From NCBI GenBank assembly GCA_017307375.1, contig JAFKFH010000018.1, forward strand, positions 1-64,000: a DNA stretch of 64,000 nt. The letters are read 5' to 3'. The notes under the pieces were generated by a model that was not told the origin of the DNA, made no database searches, and worked only from the letters and a program-made list of their open reading frames with translations. A program made the position numbers and the translations under genes. Below are positions 7,089 to 60,165 of this stretch, piece by piece. The DNA comes from Alphaproteobacteria bacterium (lineage in GTDB: Bacteria; Pseudomonadota; Alphaproteobacteria; Ferrovibrionales; Ferrovibrionaceae). Each line of letters opens with the position of its first letter. The first letter of the stretch is position 1.

Positions 7089-7129
7089 GGCAGTCATCCT
7101 ATTCATGACGTTCATCAGCAGAAATTTTC

Positions 7130-7147
7130 ATATTATGATCATAATAT
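7130..7147. promoter_or_regulatory. 18-bp perfect palindrome, probable TetR operator
   Basis: ATATTATGATCATAATAT reads identically on both strands and is strikingly AT-rich for this genome. It lies 20 bp before the TetR-family start and about 42 bp before the preferred SDR start. Its size and place fit the operator of a TetR dimer controlling both genes. Confidence 0.7.
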
Positions 7148-35692: not shown

Positions 35693-35710
35693 TTGTCATG
35701 AAACTTTCAT
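35693..35710 (+). promoter_or_regulatory. Pho-box-like element upstream of ugpB
   Basis: TTGTCAT-GAAA-CTTTCAT matches the PhoB box layout (two CTGTCAT-type heptamers, 11-bp repeat, four A-rich bases between); each heptamer has 6 of 7 consensus bases. It lies 75 bp before ugpB, whose E. coli counterpart is a classical Pho regulon operon. PhoB boxes replace the -35; TATTAG overlaps its end, and no ideal -10 lies ten bases on. Confidence 0.6.
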
Positions 35711-35784
35711 ATTAGTGTCTTGACCTGGAAATCGGCTGCCGCCAAAAGCGGGCAGCCCAAGAACATCGCTAGGGGGAGATCCTA

Positions 35785-37113
35785 ATGTTCACGCGACGCC
35801 TGCTCGTTACCGCCGCCACGGCCGCCCTGATCGGCGCCGCGGCCCCCGCCTATGCCGCCCCGGTCGAAATCCAGTGGTGGCATGCCATGGGCGGCCCGCT
35901 CGGCGAGAAGCTCGTCTCGATCGCCGAGGGCTTCAACAAGAGCCAGAGCGACTACAAGGTCGTGCCGGTGTTCAAGGGGTCCTACCCCGAAGCCATGACC
36001 GGCGCCATCGCGGCGTTCCGCGCCAAGCAGCAGCCCGACATCGTCCAGGTGTTCGAAGTCGGCACGGCGACGATGATGGCCGCCAAGGGCGCCATCTATC
36101 CCGTGTACGAGCTGATGAAGGACGAGGGCGAGAAGTTCGACCCCAAGGCCTATGTGAGCGCCGTCACCGGCTACTATTCGGACTCGAAGGGCAACCTGCT
36201 CTCGTTCCCGTTCAACTCGTCGACCCCGGTCTTCTACTACAACAAGACCCTGTTCAAGAAGGCGGGCCTCGACCCCGAGAAGGCGCCGAAGACCTGGCCG
36301 GAAGTGGCCGAGGCCGGCAAGAAGCTGCGTGCGGCCGGCGTCGCCTGCGGCATCACCACGACCTGGCCGTCGTGGGTCAACATCGAGAACCTGTCGGTCT
36401 GGCACGCGAAGCCGATCGCCACACTGAACAACGGCTTCGACGGCCTGGGCACCAAGCTCGAGATCGCCACGCCGCTGCAGGTCAAGCATATCGAGGCGCT
36501 GGCCGAGTGGCAGAAGGACAAGGTGTTCGATTACGGCGGGCGCACCAACCAGGCCGGCTCGAAGTTCGCCTCGCAGGACTGCGCGATGCTGATCGAAAGC
36601 TCGGGCGGCCAGGCCGCGATCCGCGCGAACGCGGCCAAGGCCGGCTACGAATTCGGCATCGGCATGATGCCCTACTGGCCCGACGTGCAGGGCGCCCCGC
36701 AGAACTCGATCATCGGCGGCGCGACGCTGTGGGTGCTGAAGGGCAAGCCGAAGGCCAACTACAAGGGCGTCGCCAAGTTCTTCACCTACCTGTCGAAGCC
36801 TGAAGTCCAGGCCGACTGGCACCAGTCGACCGGCTACCTGCCGATCACCAACGCCTCCTACCAGCTGACGCTGGAATCGGGCTTCTACCAGAAGTTCCCG
36901 GGCGCCGACATTCCGTTCCTGCAGATGTCGAACAAGGCCCCGCTGCCCTACACCAAGGGGCTGCGGCTCGGCTACATGGTGCAGGTGCGCGACGTGATCG
37001 AGGAAGAGCTCGAGGCCGCGTTCTCGGGCAAGAAGACCGCCAAGGCCGCGCTCGAGGATGCGCAGACCCGGGGCAACGCCCTGCTGCGCAAGTTCGAGCA
37101 GGAAAACAAGTAA
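35785..37113 (+). CDS. ugpB: sn-Glycerol-3-phosphate ABC transporter substrate-binding protein
   Basis: Periplasmic binding protein (442 residues) that captures sn-glycerol-3-phosphate and glycerophosphodiesters. Signal peptide RRLLVTAATAALIGAAAPAY ends near AYA. UgpB signatures: IQWWHAMGG, VPVFKGSYPE, PDIVQVFEVGTATMM, FPFNSSTPVFYYNK and the late QSTGYLPITNASY. AGGGGGAG lies a few bases before ATG 35785. First gene of ugpBAEC; preceded by a Pho-box-like element and followed by a strong hairpin that may raise its mRNA level over the membrane genes. Confidence 0.95.
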   Translation: MFTRRLLVTAATAALIGAAAPAYAAPVEIQWWHAMGGPLGEKLVSIAEGFNKSQSDYKVVPVFKGSYPEAMTGAIAAFRAKQQPDIVQVFEVGTATMMAAKGAIYPVYELMKDEGEKFDPKAYVSAVTGYYSDSKGNLLSFPFNSSTPVFYYNKTLFKKAGLDPEKAPKTWPEVAEAGKKLRAAGVACGITTTWPSWVNIENLSVWHAKPIATLNNGFDGLGTKLEIATPLQVKHIEALAEWQKDKVFDYGGRTNQAGSKFASQDCAMLIESSGGQAAIRANAAKAGYEFGIGMMPYWPDVQGAPQNSIIGGATLWVLKGKPKANYKGVAKFFTYLSKPEVQADWHQSTGYLPITNASYQLTLESGFYQKFPGADIPFLQMSNKAPLPYTKGLRLGYMVQVRDVIEEELEAAFSGKKTAKAALEDAQTRGNALLRKFEQENK

Positions 37114-48645: not shown

Positions 48646-49953
48646 CTATTCGGCCGGCGACGCGACGGCCTCGCGTCGCTCGGCCTGCTCCTGCCTGCGG
48701 CCGAGCCAGTAGCTCAGGCCGAGCCACAATGCGGAGACCGGCACGGCGATCCAGGCAATGCCGGTCAGGGTGAGGCCCACCGCCAGCAGACCGGCATAGG
48801 CCCAGCTGCCGACCTGATCGCCGCCGCGATAGACGACGGTGTCGATGAAATTCTTGGCCTTGTAGCGATCCTCGCGCGGGACCGAGGTGAACAAGACCTC
48901 CCGCGTCGGCCGGGCCAGGGCGAAATTCGAGACACGGCGGCCGACCTGGACCGCCACGAAGACCGCCACCGTCGGCATCGAGGCCAACGCCGCGAACCCG
49001 GCGATGCTGACCAGCGGCAGGATGCACAGCGTGAGAGCGACGCCGAGCCAGCCCATCACCCGGCCGGTCAGGAACAGCTGGATCGCCAGGGTGAAGACGT
49101 TCACCCAGAAATCGATGTCGGCGAAGAAGGCGGTGCGCGCCGCGCGATCGGCAAAATTCGCCTCGGCGATCTGGGCCTGCTGGAAATAGAGCACGGTCGA
49201 GGTGATCGAATAGAGCAGGATGAAGACCGCGATGCCGAACAGGTAGGGCGAGCGGAAGGTATGGGTGAGCCCCGCGAAGATGCCGCCGCCGACAGCGCGA
49301 TGCGGATCGTCGCCCTGCACCGGCTGCCGGAACGCATCCGAAAGCCGCGACAGCCGGCGCGTCGCGAACACGGCCACTTCGAGCAGCAGGATCGAGGCGA
49401 GCAGCAGCCAGGTCTGGCCGACATGCTCGACGAAACCTGAGGTCAGGGCCGAGCCCGCCAGGCCGCCGAGCGTCGCCCCGGCGGCCAGGAAGCCGAACAG
49501 ACGCTTGCCCTGGCCGCCGTCGAAGACGTCGACGATGAACGACCAGAACACCGAGACGACGAACAGGTTGAAGACCGAGACCCAGATGAAGAAGGCGCGG
49601 CCGATCCAGACATGCTGTTCGGGCGTCGCCAGCGCGAGCAGCCCCATGAACACCAGCAGGTTGACCATGAAGAAGCGGTAGGAGACCGCAATGAACTGCT
49701 CGCGCGGCCAGCGGCGCACCGCGGCGGCAAACAGCGGATTGACCGCGAGCATCGCGACCAGCGTGCCGGTGAACAGCCAGGGCAGGTTGCGCACCCCGCC
49801 GGCGACGCCGAGTTCATCGCGGATCGGCCGCAATACGTAATAGGCCAGGAACAACGCGAAGACGTAGAGCCATGACCAGGCCAGCGCCCGGCCCTCGCCG
49901 GGCCGGATGTCGATCACGCGGCGGATGAGGGCGGCCGCGCCGTCAGAGCGCAT
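48646..49953 (-). CDS. MFS/nucleotide (NTP/NDP) transporter-like membrane protein
   Basis: A 435-residue twelve-helix protein resembling the Npt1/Npt2-type nucleotide transporter group found in free-living bacteria (WSWLYVFALFLAYYVLRPIR near residue 30, VFWSFIVDVFDGGQGKRLFG, ARPTREVLFTSVPREDRYKA and KNFIDTVVYRGGDQVGSWAY are typical). True ATP/ADP translocases belong to parasites; the role in free-living cells is unknown. ATG 49953 overlaps the aldo/keto reductase stop region by 11 bp, so the two are co-transcribed and share the Pho-box-like element upstream. Confidence 0.85.
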   Translation of the reverse strand: MRSDGAAALIRRVIDIRPGEGRALAWSWLYVFALFLAYYVLRPIRDELGVAGGVRNLPWLFTGTLVAMLAVNPLFAAAVRRWPREQFIAVSYRFFMVNLLVFMGLLALATPEQHVWIGRAFFIWVSVFNLFVVSVFWSFIVDVFDGGQGKRLFGFLAAGATLGGLAGSALTSGFVEHVGQTWLLLASILLLEVAVFATRRLSRLSDAFRQPVQGDDPHRAVGGGIFAGLTHTFRSPYLFGIAVFILLYSITSTVLYFQQAQIAEANFADRAARTAFFADIDFWVNVFTLAIQLFLTGRVMGWLGVALTLCILPLVSIAGFAALASMPTVAVFVAVQVGRRVSNFALARPTREVLFTSVPREDRYKAKNFIDTVVYRGGDQVGSWAYAGLLAVGLTLTGIAWIAVPVSALWLGLSYWLGRRQEQAERREAVASPAE

Positions 49954-50863
49954 CGATGAACTGCTCCATCCGCCGGCGCAGCGCCGCGTCGGGCATGCGG
50001 CCCTGGGCGGCCTTGAGGTTGTCGTCGACATAGCGGGCCTGGGCCATGCCCGGCACCGCGCAGGTCACGGCGTCATGGGAGACGATGTACTTGAGGAACA
50101 CCTGGGCCCAGGTCGTGCAGTCGATCTCGGCCGCCCAGTCGGGCAGCGGCCTGCCCTCGGTCGCCTTGAACAGCCGGCCCCGGCCGAACGGCAGGTTGAC
50201 GAACACCGCCATGCCGCGATCCCGGGCCAGCGGGATGATGCGGTCGGCCGAGCCGCGATCGTCCAGCGCATAGTCGATCTGGATCGAATCGAGCGGTTCG
50301 TCCCGCATCATCGCCTCGAAATCCTGGTACTGGCGATCGAACGAGGTGGTCGCGCCGACATAGCGGATGCGGCCGGCGGCCTTCAGGTCGCGCAGGGTGG
50401 CGAGCTGGTTTGCCGTGTCGCGCAGGTTGTGGACCGCGATCAGGTCGATCCGGTCGGTCTGCAGGTTGCGGAAGGCCTGCTCGATCTGGGCGCGGCCGGC
50501 TTCCTTCGAATCGGCACCGACCTTGGTCGCCAGGAACAGCCGGGGTCGCAGCCCGAGGTCGGCGACCAGCCGCCCCATGATCGCCTCGGCATTGCCATAG
50601 GACGGGGCGGTGTCGATCACCGTGCCGCCCAAGGCGCTGAACCGCGCGAAGGTCTCGCGCAACGGCGCCATGTCGGCGTCGGTGCGGGCTTCCTCATAGC
50701 GGCGGGCGGTGCCCAGGCCGATGACCGGGATCCGCTCGCCGCTCGACGGAATCGGCTTGGTGATCAGGGCCGGACCCTGGGCCAGCGCCGAACCACCCGG
50801 CACCTGGCCGCCCAGCGCCAGGGCCGCGCCACCAGCCAGCAGGCCACGTCGGGTAATCTGCAT
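49943..50863 (-). CDS. Exported aldo/keto reductase (Tat-type signal)
   Basis: A 306-residue aldo/keto reductase. The N-terminus QITRRGLLAGGAALALGG is a twin-arginine signal, so the folded protein should act in the periplasm, unusual for an NADPH enzyme. The barrel follows: IPVIGLGTARRYEEAR, DTAPSYGNAE with the catalytic Asp and Tyr, LFLATKVGA with Lys and IDLIAVHNL with His, so the catalytic tetrad is intact. TWAQVFLKYIVSHDAVTCAV precedes the phosphate-binding end. GGGAGG precedes ATG 50863. Preceded by a Pho-box-like element and followed by a nucleotide-transporter-like gene. Confidence 0.9.
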   Translation of the reverse strand: MQITRRGLLAGGAALALGGQVPGGSALAQGPALITKPIPSSGERIPVIGLGTARRYEEARTDADMAPLRETFARFSALGGTVIDTAPSYGNAEAIMGRLVADLGLRPRLFLATKVGADSKEAGRAQIEQAFRNLQTDRIDLIAVHNLRDTANQLATLRDLKAAGRIRYVGATTSFDRQYQDFEAMMRDEPLDSIQIDYALDDRGSADRIIPLARDRGMAVFVNLPFGRGRLFKATEGRPLPDWAAEIDCTTWAQVFLKYIVSHDAVTCAVPGMAQARYVDDNLKAAQGRMPDAALRRRMEQFIDAL

Positions 50864-50890
50864 GACATCCTCCCATTGCGAAGGATTATC

Positions 50891-50908
50891 ATGACATTTT
50901 TATGACAG
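50891..50908 (-). promoter_or_regulatory. Pho-box-like element upstream of the aldo/keto reductase
   Basis: Read on the minus strand, CTGTCAT-AAAA-ATGTCAT is two 7-mers in 11-bp register: the first fits the PhoB box exactly and the second in 6 of 7 bases, with an all-A spacer. GATAAT follows directly; a CGCAAT lies ten bases further and could serve as -10. The start codon is 28 bp downstream. Confidence 0.6.
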
Positions 50909-50953: not shown

Positions 50954-53221
50954 TCAGGCGCCGACGCTGATGCCGTGGCTGGCCGCCCAGTCGAGCAGGC
51001 GGTCGCGGATCGAATGTTCGTGGCTGTCGAGGATCTCGGCCATGAAGCGCTGGATCTGGCCGGCATCGAGGCTGCGCAGCATTTCCTTGACCGGCCCGAC
51101 CGAACCGGCCTGCATCGAGAAGCCGTCGAGGCCGATGCCGATCAGCGCCATCGCCTCGAGCGGCTTGCCGCCCATCTCGCCGCACAGCGTCACCGGCCGG
51201 CCGGCGGCGCGGCACTGGTCGACGACGTCCTTGAGAAACTTGAGGAACCCCGGCGCCAGGCGATCGTAGCGGTCCATCACCTTGGGATTGCCACGATCGA
51301 CGGCGAACAGGAACTGCATCAGGTCGTTCGACCCGATCGAGATGAAGTCGACGCGCGGCAGCAGCGCGCCGAGCTGATAGGCCAGGGCCGGCACTTCGAG
51401 CATGGTGCCGACGCGCAGTTCGGAAGGCACTTCGCGGTTGTGCTTTCTGACCCAGGCCACCTCGGAATCGAGCATCGCGCGGGCGCGGATGAATTCCTCG
51501 ACCTCCGACACCATCGGAAACATGATGTCGAGCCGGCGGCCGGCACCCGCGATCAGCAGCGCGCGCAGCTGGCTGCGCAGCAGCACCGGGCGGTCGAGGC
51601 CCATCCGGATCGCCCGCCAGCCCAGCGCCGGATTTTCCTCCTCCGGGTGCGGCATGTAGGGCAGCCGCTTGTCGCCGCCGATGTCGAGCGTGCGGAAGAC
51701 GACCGGCCGCCCCTTGGCACTGTCGAGGATCGAGGCGTAGATGCCGGCCTGGGCATCGATGCGCGGCAGCGACGAGCGCACCATGAAATGCAGCTCGGTA
51801 CGATAGAGACCGATGCCGTCGGCACCGGTCTCGTCGAGATGGTCGAGATCGGCCAGCAGGCCGGCATTCATGTAGAGCCGGATCTTGCGGCCGTCGCGGG
51901 TGACGGCCGGATCATCCTTCTGGCTGGCATATTTGGCGAGGCGGGCGGCGCGCACCGCCATGTTCTGGCGGAAGGCGGCCTGCACATCCTCGCGCGGGCG
52001 AATGAACAGCTGACCGCGATCGGCGTCGACGATGACCTGGTCGCCCAGCTCGACCGCCGCGATCGCCCCTTCGGCCGAGCCGACGACCGGCAGGTTCAGG
52101 GCGCGGGCGACGATGGCCACATGGCTCATCGTCGACCCTTCCTCGAGCACCAGGGCCTGCAGCCGCGCGCGATCGTAGTCGAGCAGCTCGGCCGGCCCCA
52201 TCGAGCGGGCGAACAGCACCGCGTTGTCGGGCATCTTGCGCACATGCTCGTTCGGGTCGCGCCCCGATAGATGCAGCAGCAGGCGGTTCGCCAGGTCCTC
52301 CAGATCGGCCAGCCGCTCCCGGATATAGGGGTCGGTGATCTGGTTCATGCGGTTGCGCATGTCGGTCTGGACGCGCTGGACCGCCGCCTCGGCGGTGAGG
52401 CCGCTTTCGACGGCCTCGTGCAGCTTGGCGTTCCAGCCCTTGTCGTAGGCGAACATCTTGTAGGTTTCGAGGATGTCGCGGCTTTCGCCGGTGATGCCGT
52501 CGCCGTCGAGCATCAGGTCGATCGAATCGCGCATCGACAGGATCGCGCGCTCGAGCCGTTCCAATTCGTGGCCGGTATCCTCGGCCACGGTGCGCGTCAC
52601 CTCGATACGCGGCTCGTGCAGATGGGCGGTGCCGATCGCCAGCCCTTCCGACAGCGCCCGGCCCTCGATCCGGGTCGGCAGCAGGCTGGAGCGGCGGACG
52701 CGGGCGAGGTCCTCGGGCGCCAGGATGCCGGACTGGCTGACCAGTTCGGCCAGCACCATGGCGATGGTCTCGAGGACCTCGACCTCTTCCTCGGCATATT
52801 GGCGGCGGGTGCGGTTCTGCACGACCAGTACGCCGATCGACTTGCCGGCGCGCAGGATCGGCACGCCGAGCAGCGAATGGTAGATCTCTTCGCCGGTTTC
52901 GGGGCGATAGGCGAAATGAGGATGCGACTGGGCATCGGCCAGCGCCAGCGGCCGGGAATTCATCGCGATGTCGCCGACCAGACCCTCGCCGACATTGAGG
53001 CGGGTGCGATGGACGGCCGAGGGATTCAGGCCCTCGGTCGCGTAGAGCTCGAGGATCTCGCCCGGCCGCATCAGATAGACCGAGCACACCTCCGACACCA
53101 TGTTGGAGGCGATGACGCGCACGACCTCGTGCAGCCGGTCGTCCGGGCTGCCGGGGCCGGCGAGAAGTTCGCGTAGACGCTTGAGAAGGAGACGCGGCCC
53201 CGCCGCCGCCGGCCGTTTCAT
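50954..53221 (-). CDS. ptsP: Phosphoenolpyruvate-protein phosphotransferase, nitrogen PTS (EI-Ntr)
   Basis: First enzyme of the PTS-Ntr phosphorelay (PEP to NPr to EIIA-Ntr), which links nitrogen and carbon state to potassium, PHB and stress control. 755 residues: an N-terminal GAF domain (LHEVVRVIASNMVSEVCSVY, GDIAMNSRPLALADAQ) that binds glutamine/2-oxoglutarate in this family, then the EI domains with phospho-His in LEEGSTMSHVAIVARALN and the C-terminal PEP-binding barrel (GIGLYRTELHFMVR, RTLDIGGDKRLPYM, FISIGSNDLMQFLFAVDR, catalytic Cys in VTLCGEMGG). Same strand as lysC, 51 bp after it. Confidence 0.95.
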   Translation of the reverse strand: MKRPAAAGPRLLLKRLRELLAGPGSPDDRLHEVVRVIASNMVSEVCSVYLMRPGEILELYATEGLNPSAVHRTRLNVGEGLVGDIAMNSRPLALADAQSHPHFAYRPETGEEIYHSLLGVPILRAGKSIGVLVVQNRTRRQYAEEEVEVLETIAMVLAELVSQSGILAPEDLARVRRSSLLPTRIEGRALSEGLAIGTAHLHEPRIEVTRTVAEDTGHELERLERAILSMRDSIDLMLDGDGITGESRDILETYKMFAYDKGWNAKLHEAVESGLTAEAAVQRVQTDMRNRMNQITDPYIRERLADLEDLANRLLLHLSGRDPNEHVRKMPDNAVLFARSMGPAELLDYDRARLQALVLEEGSTMSHVAIVARALNLPVVGSAEGAIAAVELGDQVIVDADRGQLFIRPREDVQAAFRQNMAVRAARLAKYASQKDDPAVTRDGRKIRLYMNAGLLADLDHLDETGADGIGLYRTELHFMVRSSLPRIDAQAGIYASILDSAKGRPVVFRTLDIGGDKRLPYMPHPEEENPALGWRAIRMGLDRPVLLRSQLRALLIAGAGRRLDIMFPMVSEVEEFIRARAMLDSEVAWVRKHNREVPSELRVGTMLEVPALAYQLGALLPRVDFISIGSNDLMQFLFAVDRGNPKVMDRYDRLAPGFLKFLKDVVDQCRAAGRPVTLCGEMGGKPLEAMALIGIGLDGFSMQAGSVGPVKEMLRSLDAGQIQRFMAEILDSHEHSIRDRLLDWAASHGISVGA

Positions 53222-59613: not shown

Positions 59614-60165
59614 ATGGATCCCGTCATGCAACGGTCACCTGTAGATGGCACGTCCGTGCCGGCCCGACAAGGGCGGGGCGCGCCCTCGCCCTGGATATCC
59701 GACCATGCCGGGCTGGTCCCGGCCGGCGGCCCGGTGCTCGATCTCGCCTGCGGGTCGGGCCGGCATGCCCTGCTGTTCCTCGGGCGCGGCCATCCGGTCG
59801 TCGCGGTCGACCGCGACATTTCCGGGGTTCGCGACCTGCCCGCCGAGCTTGTCGAGGCCGACCTGGAAGACGGCCCCTGGCCGCTGCCGCACCGGCGTTT
59901 CGCCGGCATCGTGGTGACAAATTACCTTTGGCGGCCGCTCTTGCCGCGGATCGTCGCCGCCGTGGCACCGGGGGGCGTCCTGCTCTACGAGACATTCGCC
60001 CAGGGCCAGGCCCGATTCGGCCGCCCGGCGAACCCGGATTTCCTGCTGCGGCCGGGCGAATTGCTGACGGCGGTGGCGGGCCAGCTCGAGGTCCGCGCCT
60101 ATTTCGACGGCGAAACGAGCGAGCCGGCCATGCGCCAGCGGATCGTCGCCGTCAGGCGGCCTTGA
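59614..60165 (+). CDS. Class I SAM-dependent methyltransferase
   Basis: A short 183-residue methyltransferase. SAM motif I is GPVLDLACGSGRHALLFLGR, followed by VVAVDRDISGV (acidic residue of motif II), VEADLEDGPWPL and IVVTNYLWRPLLPRIVAAV. GGVLLYETFAQGQARFGRP and PDFLLRPGELL are like the TehB/YodH-type group; the substrate is unknown. Start ATG 59614 or ATG 59626. Divergent from DUF1178 with 17 bp between starts; its 3' end overlaps the convergent transporter gene by 14 bp. Confidence 0.87.
   Translation: MDPVMQRSPVDGTSVPARQGRGAPSPWISDHAGLVPAGGPVLDLACGSGRHALLFLGRGHPVVAVDRDISGVRDLPAELVEADLEDGPWPLPHRRFAGIVVTNYLWRPLLPRIVAAVAPGGVLLYETFAQGQARFGRPANPDFLLRPGELLTAVAGQLEVRAYFDGETSEPAMRQRIVAVRRP

Follow-up and report, generated by a model that had tools for sequence, protein, structure and literature searches.

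The 18 bp at positions 50891-50908 (minus strand) of the window, the whole 64,000-nucleotide stretch of DNA that was analysed, are very probably a genuine PhoB-binding sequence, a bona fide Pho box of the lineage. They lie ahead of two overlapping genes, which encode an aldo/keto reductase (AKR) with a Tat-type signal and a twelve-helix carrier that resembles nucleotide transporters (NTT). Boxes were not found at the orthologous pairs scanned; related carriers are repeatedly linked to genes for exported oxidoreductases of several families, and we consider the pair of more interest than its promoter.

A very probable Pho box precedes the reductase gene

The box reads CTGTCAT-AAAA-ATGTCAT on the minus strand, with two half-sites (CTGTCATAAAAATGTCAT) that are direct repeats of 7 nt, CTGTCAT-like, at an 11-bp period and that match at 7/7 and 6/7 positions; a third half-site is absent. 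It is intergenic, sense-oriented and ahead of the first gene, that of the reductase. The preliminary description had read this sequence at the same place and strand, and it is indeed present. The distance to the reductase gene had been given as 28 bp; the closeness stands, but the figure does not, as 27 bases separate the end of the box from the ATG at 50863. This interval contains a putative -10 hexamer, GATAAT (50885-50890, minus strand), which abuts the box (offset 0) and is called on consensus match alone (5/6 to TATAAT), and a Shine-Dalgarno-like GGGAGG (50869-50874, minus strand), read directly in the sequence. On the other side, a ptsP-like gene (GAF and PEP-utilising enzyme domains, 50954-53221, minus strand) ends 90 bp before the reductase gene.

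The pattern TGTCATN5TGTCAT was searched for genome-wide (7,539,962 bases, 7.54 Mb, in 41 contigs). The reductase box is the only site without mismatch. Nine further sites have one mismatch, six of them sense-oriented upstream of a gene, two antisense and one intragenic. In the 18 genomes of the family, the 18-mer CTGTCATN5TGTCAT gave 51 matches with at most one mismatch, compared with 3 for a reversed control pattern.

A PhoB matrix scan, proposed as a check in the preliminary description, was performed with 23 Pho boxes from this genome and others of its family, where they precede ugpB-, pstS-, phnC- or phnD-like genes, PhoX genes and the like; the reductase box was left out. Of the 23 rows, 12 are near-identical ugpB boxes, on which the matrix leans. 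The reductase box scored 27.08 bits. When each control was scored with itself left out, all 11 non-ugpB boxes fell below this value and eight of the 12 ugpB boxes, a group with many near copies, lay above it. The highest background score was 15.7 bits, in 400 kb of stretches from the same genome, and simulation of 119.8 million positions with a Markov-3 model gave none at 27.08 bits or above. Within the window alone, three sites with up to three mismatches compare with 1.93 expected by shuffling, a non-significant difference; the weight for the box being more than chance comes from its perfect match, not from the window count. The genome-wide search and the simulation thus make a chance match unlikely, and the very good fit to the PhoB box that had been noted is borne out by the sole perfect match in the genome and by the matrix score. 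Two weaker Pho-box-like sites are also present in the window, at 7125-7142 and 59621-59638 (both plus strand; 16.5 and 15.6 bits).

PhoB and sister boxes in the genome and family

PhoB is encoded on contig C20 (TIGR02154, 354.8 bits; curated cut-off 296.2), and a pstS-like gene with a two-mismatch box upstream lies some 7 kb away. Further boxes precede PhoX (PF05787), a PhoU-domain Na/Pi cotransporter and a TauD-family dioxygenase. Boxes also precede a saccharopine-dehydrogenase-family gene, a GntR/UTRA regulator and a ParA-type gene, none of which we know as a Pho gene. At the ugpB-type loci of the family, this genome included, a box was present with at most three mismatches in 16/16 cases and with at most two in 10/16. 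The positive control in the window is a three-half-site Pho box (35693-35721, plus strand) before a ugpB-like gene; it scored 23.3 bits against the matrix built without it and 26.6 against the one that includes it. The ugpB-like gene (35785-37113, plus strand) is followed by permease genes. These sister boxes, together with the presence of PhoB, argue that in this lineage the reductase site is very probably a true PhoB box. It shares with the alphaproteobacterial PhoB regulon (ugp, pst, phn, phoX) the two CTGTCAT-type half-sites 11 bp apart, the sense orientation and the intergenic location, and its score falls inside the range of the control boxes.

Some sites of the genome and family merit description in their own right. 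A double Pho-box-like site (C29:92578-92605, minus strand) lies 58 bp before the saccharopine-dehydrogenase-family gene; the gene downstream of this site resembles homospermidine synthase, not a Pho gene to our knowledge. A one-mismatch Pho box (C38:95433, minus strand) lies 43 bp before the gene of the GntR/UTRA regulator, which is possibly a regulator of phosphonate genes. In two relatives (loci L199 and L217 of genomes G007 and G009), a perfect Pho box precedes, at a distance of 223 bp, a called gene whose product resembles CHAD-domain proteins, a class linked to polyphosphate.

The box is not found at orthologous pairs

The check for a box before orthologous pairs, also proposed earlier, went against the preliminary description: a box with at most two mismatches was found before the first gene in 0/50 AKR/carrier orthologous pairs scanned. 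These 50 AKR-paired loci with a promoter region (29 with the AKR gene first, 21 with the carrier gene first) belong to 95 loci scanned overall; L033 and L045 were dropped from the promoter scan for lack of a usable upstream region, and L122 offered only 112 bp. Because 43 loci with a carrier only had been scanned directly before the carrier, which is not always the operon start, a rescan covered 3.6 kb upstream on both strands of each of the 95 loci, 296 kb altogether. It gave no site with fewer than two mismatches, and the eight scattered two-mismatch sites compare with about six expected at the rate of the window's genome.

The box-less loci include Roseomonas-type ones with carriers up to 86% identical to that of the window. 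In Roseomonas-type genomes the motif is found before pstS- or phnC-like genes in 7/10 cases, these gene names being given by eye from translations. With at most one mismatch, the 18-mer occurs 19 times in the ten genomes: six occurrences lie 80-99 bp before a pstS-like gene (L279, L281, L283, L286, L291 and L292) and two lie 52 bp before a phnC-like gene (L276 and L277). Since these genomes use the motif elsewhere, the missing box at their pairs is not simply due to the use of another motif.

A phosphate-starvation role for the pair, for example in the salvage of phosphorylated compounds, had been suggested in the preliminary description. A very probable Pho box in a host that encodes PhoB speaks for the first part of this proposal; the lack of box conservation speaks against it, and weakens the case for a general role of the pair in phosphate starvation. 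A conserved phosphate-starvation module was rejected for the absence of the box at the orthologues scanned. No sign of salvage was found; the gene neighbourhoods described below point instead to extracytoplasmic NAD(P)-type redox enzymes. In conclusion, membership of the pair in the Pho regulon is partly supported and a phosphate-salvage role is weakly supported.

Position of the box

The reductase box lies 27 bp before the start codon, whereas nine comparison boxes of the same genome (six sense one-mismatch sites and three two-mismatch sites, before the Na/Pi cotransporter, pstS-like and dioxygenase genes) lie 43-101 bp before theirs. Other two-mismatch sites, of undefined standing, are found from 13 bp before a start codon onward, and a perfect box in a relative (L201) is 17 bp from the start codon. 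The sole good -10 hexamer is the one that abuts the box, with a match of 5/6 compared with 3/6 or less at offsets 8-12 (the next best being 3/6 at offset 10); in 19 distinct control promoters the -10 peak was not sharp either. Compared with other alphaproteobacterial Pho boxes, the reductase box differs in lacking a third half-site, in its abutting GATAAT and in not being found at orthologues. According to passages of one study, PhoB is a dual regulator whose effect is set by the position of its site, activation requiring strict spacing (PMC10294691). With this position dependence and this geometry, repression or no effect is as likely as activation, and the position of the box would fit blocking better than activation.

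The reductase

The reductase gene (49943-50863, minus strand, 306 aa) encodes a protein that matches PF00248 (E 8.9e-29, 100.9 bits for a cut-off of 24). Its N-terminus, MQITRRGLLAGG..., carries an RR signal; in the longer stretch MQITRRGLLAGGAALALGG..., an RR motif and a hydrophobic h-region were recognized by regular expression and by eye, and orthologues are similar. Residues D84, Y89, K114 and H145 are invariant across 34 homologues (alignment A2); we take them to be the Asp-Tyr-Lys-His catalytic tetrad of aldo/keto reductases. The structural model (pLDDT 90.3) retrieved as its first solved fold 4pmj, an NADP complex. The protein therefore resembles known aldo/keto reductases (4pmj, 4xap, YghZ AKR14A1) in its PF00248 match, its TIM-barrel fold and the invariant tetrad, and differs from them in its Tat-type signal and in an identity of 25% to the top solved fold, 4pmj. 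The PF00248 match and the RR-type, signal-like N-terminus agree with the Tat-exported aldo/keto reductase proposed earlier, and the enzyme is presumably extracytoplasmic.

The carrier

The carrier gene (48646-49953, minus strand, 435 aa) starts at 49953 and the reductase gene ends at 49943, so that the two share 11 bp, as originally noted. The description of its product as an Npt-like twelve-helix protein also holds, Chlamydia NTT1 being the closest solved fold. Profile comparison with Chlamydia NTT1 chain 9j3n gave E 1.9e-15. In a Foldseek search of the PDB with the carrier model (pLDDT 87.5), the first match was 9j3o (NTT1; E 2.5e-12, TMq 0.81), followed by other MFS folds with TMq of about 0.6-0.7; the inward-open NTT1 state, 9j3n, ranked 24th with 0.58. 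This likeness to the NTT/TLC transporters (Chlamydia NTT1, Protochlamydia NTT4) is offset by several differences. The carrier is 17% identical to 9j3o and remains below the curated cut-offs for TLC (PF03219; 18.2, cut-off 21), TIGR00769 (23.4, cut-off 387.2) and also MFS_1 (21.6, cut-off 33.4). Furthermore, its clade is linked to exported oxidoreductases, and the hosts are, by record titles, largely free-living. Among 43 aligned carriers, MFS_1 was matched with E <=0.01 by 42 and TLC by 24. The carrier of the window thus appears, from sequence comparison and modelling, to be NTT-like without being a member of the NTT/TLC family.

The profile alignment sets the invariant K365, K367 and D371 of the carrier against the NTT1 segment KGKAAID. 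For plant NTT1, passages of PMC3306366 give K155 and K527 as nucleotide-binding lysines. NAD is transported by PamNTT4, which falls outside the main NTT clade, and the same has been suggested for its uncharacterised relatives (excerpts of PMC5381601).

Origin of the pair

The carrier was found in 2/18 genomes of the family, its own included and some of them incomplete, and the other copy is 47% identical. The five nearest carriers on the tree are from Acetobacteraceae (Roseomonas-type) and are 82-86% identical. The simplest reading is that the pair was gained recently by horizontal transfer and that the box would be a local feature. In L088, L116 and L043 a second carrier copy lies beside the first; these second copies are about 40% (L088 and L116) and 37% (L043) identical to the carrier of the window. 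Membership in a defence system was considered and rejected, as no PADLOC match was found at E <=0.01.

Carriers are linked to oxidoreductase genes

The 95 carrier loci come from named genomes (80) and from a class sample (15). In 79/95 loci the carrier gene has, on its own strand and no more than 300 bp away, a gene of the AKR, F420-oxidoreductase-like or epimerase type (AKR 40, F420-type 26, epimerase 15, some loci having two); the partner models were seeded from the same loci, which are uneven, with many Methylobacterium and Roseomonas. One counted AKR match (L110) is weak, at 45 bits, and the partner in L118 runs into masked bases. Genes were called by a home-made codon-usage script, on which start sites and distances depend. 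Two partner families were present within 2.6 kb in 18/95 loci. Same-strand partner matches numbered 83 in the first 500 bp and 0-2 per bin from 2.5 to 5 kb, compared with a steady 0-3 per bin on the opposite strand; in 400 kb of background from the window's genome, the five partner models together matched four ORFs. The ten neighbours searched in Pfam matched F420_oxidored (PF03807), Epimerase (PF01370)/NAD_binding_10, adh_short (PF00106) and Aldo_ket_red, and no phosphatase or nucleotidase was seen among the neighbours displayed, of which these ten were Pfam-searched.

By the 300-bp rule, 16/95 loci are unlinked; six of these are still near another oxidoreductase gene. L086 and L098 have an epimerase-type gene nearby, with signal-peptidase-I and lipoprotein signals respectively, L088 and L116 have an SDR gene nearby, Tat-type in L088, L041 has a Tat-type SDR downstream, and L115 has a Tat-type epimerase upstream on the opposite strand.

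A phylum sample of 29 loci, which shares two loci (L248 and L253) and also genera with the first set, gave a linked partner within 170 bp for 15/20 carriers scoring more than 450 bits, and for 0/9 of those scoring less than 400 bits. On a FastTree of 121 carriers, the six partner labels ('none' included) require at least 25 changes, a rough number in view of the long branches; the partial carriers of L045 and L046, and L248 and L253, which duplicate class-sample genomes, were left out of the tree.

No published account of a linkage between Tat reductases and nucleotide transporters was found in the open literature, where some 'aldo-keto' spellings may have been missed, nor, judging by titles, was a carrier for periplasmic NADP(H). 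The available text of PMC5381601 does not contain the terms 'reductase', 'periplasm' or 'twin-arginine'. The carrier/oxidoreductase linkage is therefore without description in the open literature as searched, and a prior account may exist elsewhere.

Export signals and cofactor motifs of the partner enzymes

A Tat-type RR motif was found on the adjacent partner in 63/95 loci. Seventeen adjacent partners were not flagged for Tat, several of which show RR, RK or single-R variants by eye. Lipoprotein signals are present on the partners in L079, L098 and L264, and a signal of the signal-peptidase-I type in L086. Some Gemmatimonadota epimerases adjoining the carrier have no visible export signal; in L120, L132, L134 and L137 a Tat-type epimerase copy lies one or two genes further. 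The carrier is preceded by two or three tandem epimerase-family genes in L120, L132, L133, L134 and L137, the farthest copy being Tat-type.

Regular expressions detected [SL]SR after the glycine motif in 26/26 F420-type adjacent partners and an FNRG motif in 13/15 epimerase-type ones. We take both to be marks of NADP-preferring Rossmann enzymes. Tat enzymes can be exported with their cofactor bound, so that they do not strictly depend on a supply route. Sec passengers cross the membrane unfolded; they therefore cannot bring a cofactor along and must find one outside. Glucose-fructose oxidoreductase, which reportedly binds its cofactor before Tat export, is likewise an exported oxidoreductase of the NADP-binding class; the enzymes described here differ from it in that a carrier gene lies beside them and in that a few of them look Sec-exported.

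Discussion

Our preferred interpretation is a joint one, which we put forward tentatively as coming close to, without reaching, the probable. The 18 bp would bind PhoB at the reductase/carrier pair, in this lineage only. The pair would be a horizontally mobile unit with overlapping genes, one for an NTT-like carrier of the inner membrane and one for an exported oxidoreductase of the NADP(H) type. The most likely task of the carrier would be to pass NADP(H) or NAD(H) through that membrane, allowing the enzymes to work outside the cytoplasm. We infer this substrate, and the direction of its transport, from the association of the same carrier with several different exported NAD(P)-type oxidoreductases, of which the cofactor is the most economical common factor. 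At low phosphate, PhoB would repress the pair rather than activate it, and repression would spare a phosphate-rich cofactor by cutting its outflow. Repression appears likelier than activation because the box abuts the likely -10 hexamer, 27 bp from the start codon; we infer PhoB occupancy, the -10 hexamer with its start site and the direction of regulation.

The opposite regulation, activation by PhoB at low phosphate of proteins that help to salvage phosphorylated compounds, with the carrier importing nucleotides, seems improbable to us. In its favour, the box is the best in the genome by mismatch count and sense-oriented before the first gene, and NTT relatives do import nucleotides. However, none of 50 orthologous pairs is boxed, even though 7/10 Roseomonas-type genomes use the motif at pstS/phnC-like genes, the geometry (27 bp to the ATG, GATAAT abutting) is unfavourable, and the identified neighbours are redox enzymes, with no phosphatase or nucleotidase seen among those displayed, ten of them searched in Pfam. 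Alternatively, the box may be bound but inert, or a recent accident, beside a horizontally transferred pair, an interpretation to which we give a minor share of our confidence. It agrees with the absence of boxes at the other pairs scanned, with the Acetobacteraceae origin of the nearest carriers (82-86%) and with a homologue in 1/17 other genomes of the family (47%), and many E. coli PhoB sites, above all intragenic ones, are described as inert in passages of PMC10294691. Nevertheless, the reductase box is perfect, intergenic and sense-oriented, 27 bp before the start codon, and a score of 27.08 bits is not expected by chance in the genome.

The substrate of the carrier might also be unrelated to nucleotides. 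It is conceivable, if doubtful, that we are dealing with a porter of the MFS type whose organic compound (e.g. a sugar or a ketone) is a substrate or product common to the exported enzymes, which would act on it with a cofactor bound before Tat export. The more frequent matches to MFS_1 than to TLC (42 and 24 of 43 carriers, E <=0.01) and the mostly Tat-type signals of the flagged partners suit such a porter; partners of different folds (a TIM barrel and several Rossmann types), the few partners resembling Sec-exported lipoproteins and a nucleotide carrier, NTT1, as the nearest solved fold do not. The NAD(P)(H)-carrier interpretation can be taken further: an NTT-like carrier clade of many phyla would supply the periplasm with NADP(H), and an extracytoplasmic pyridine-nucleotide pool would serve exported oxidoreductases that plug into it (AKR, F420-oxidoreductase-like, epimerase and SDR); here, PhoB would shut the outflow when phosphate is scarce. 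In this broad form we regard it as speculative and rather unlikely.

Excerpts of PMC5381601 indicate that the diversity of NTT-like proteins in free-living bacteria has been little studied by experiment. Exported NAD(P)-type enzymes exist in genomes, which raises the question of how they obtain and recycle their cofactor. The general view is that the periplasm contains no free NAD(P)(H). A carrier with the nucleotide-transporter fold that is repeatedly linked to enzymes of different descent and export routes makes the cofactor question directly testable. If the proposal is true, it would provide a role for NTT-like proteins of free-living bacteria, and the Pho box would be a natural lever on the module, which may be phosphate-switched in this lineage alone.
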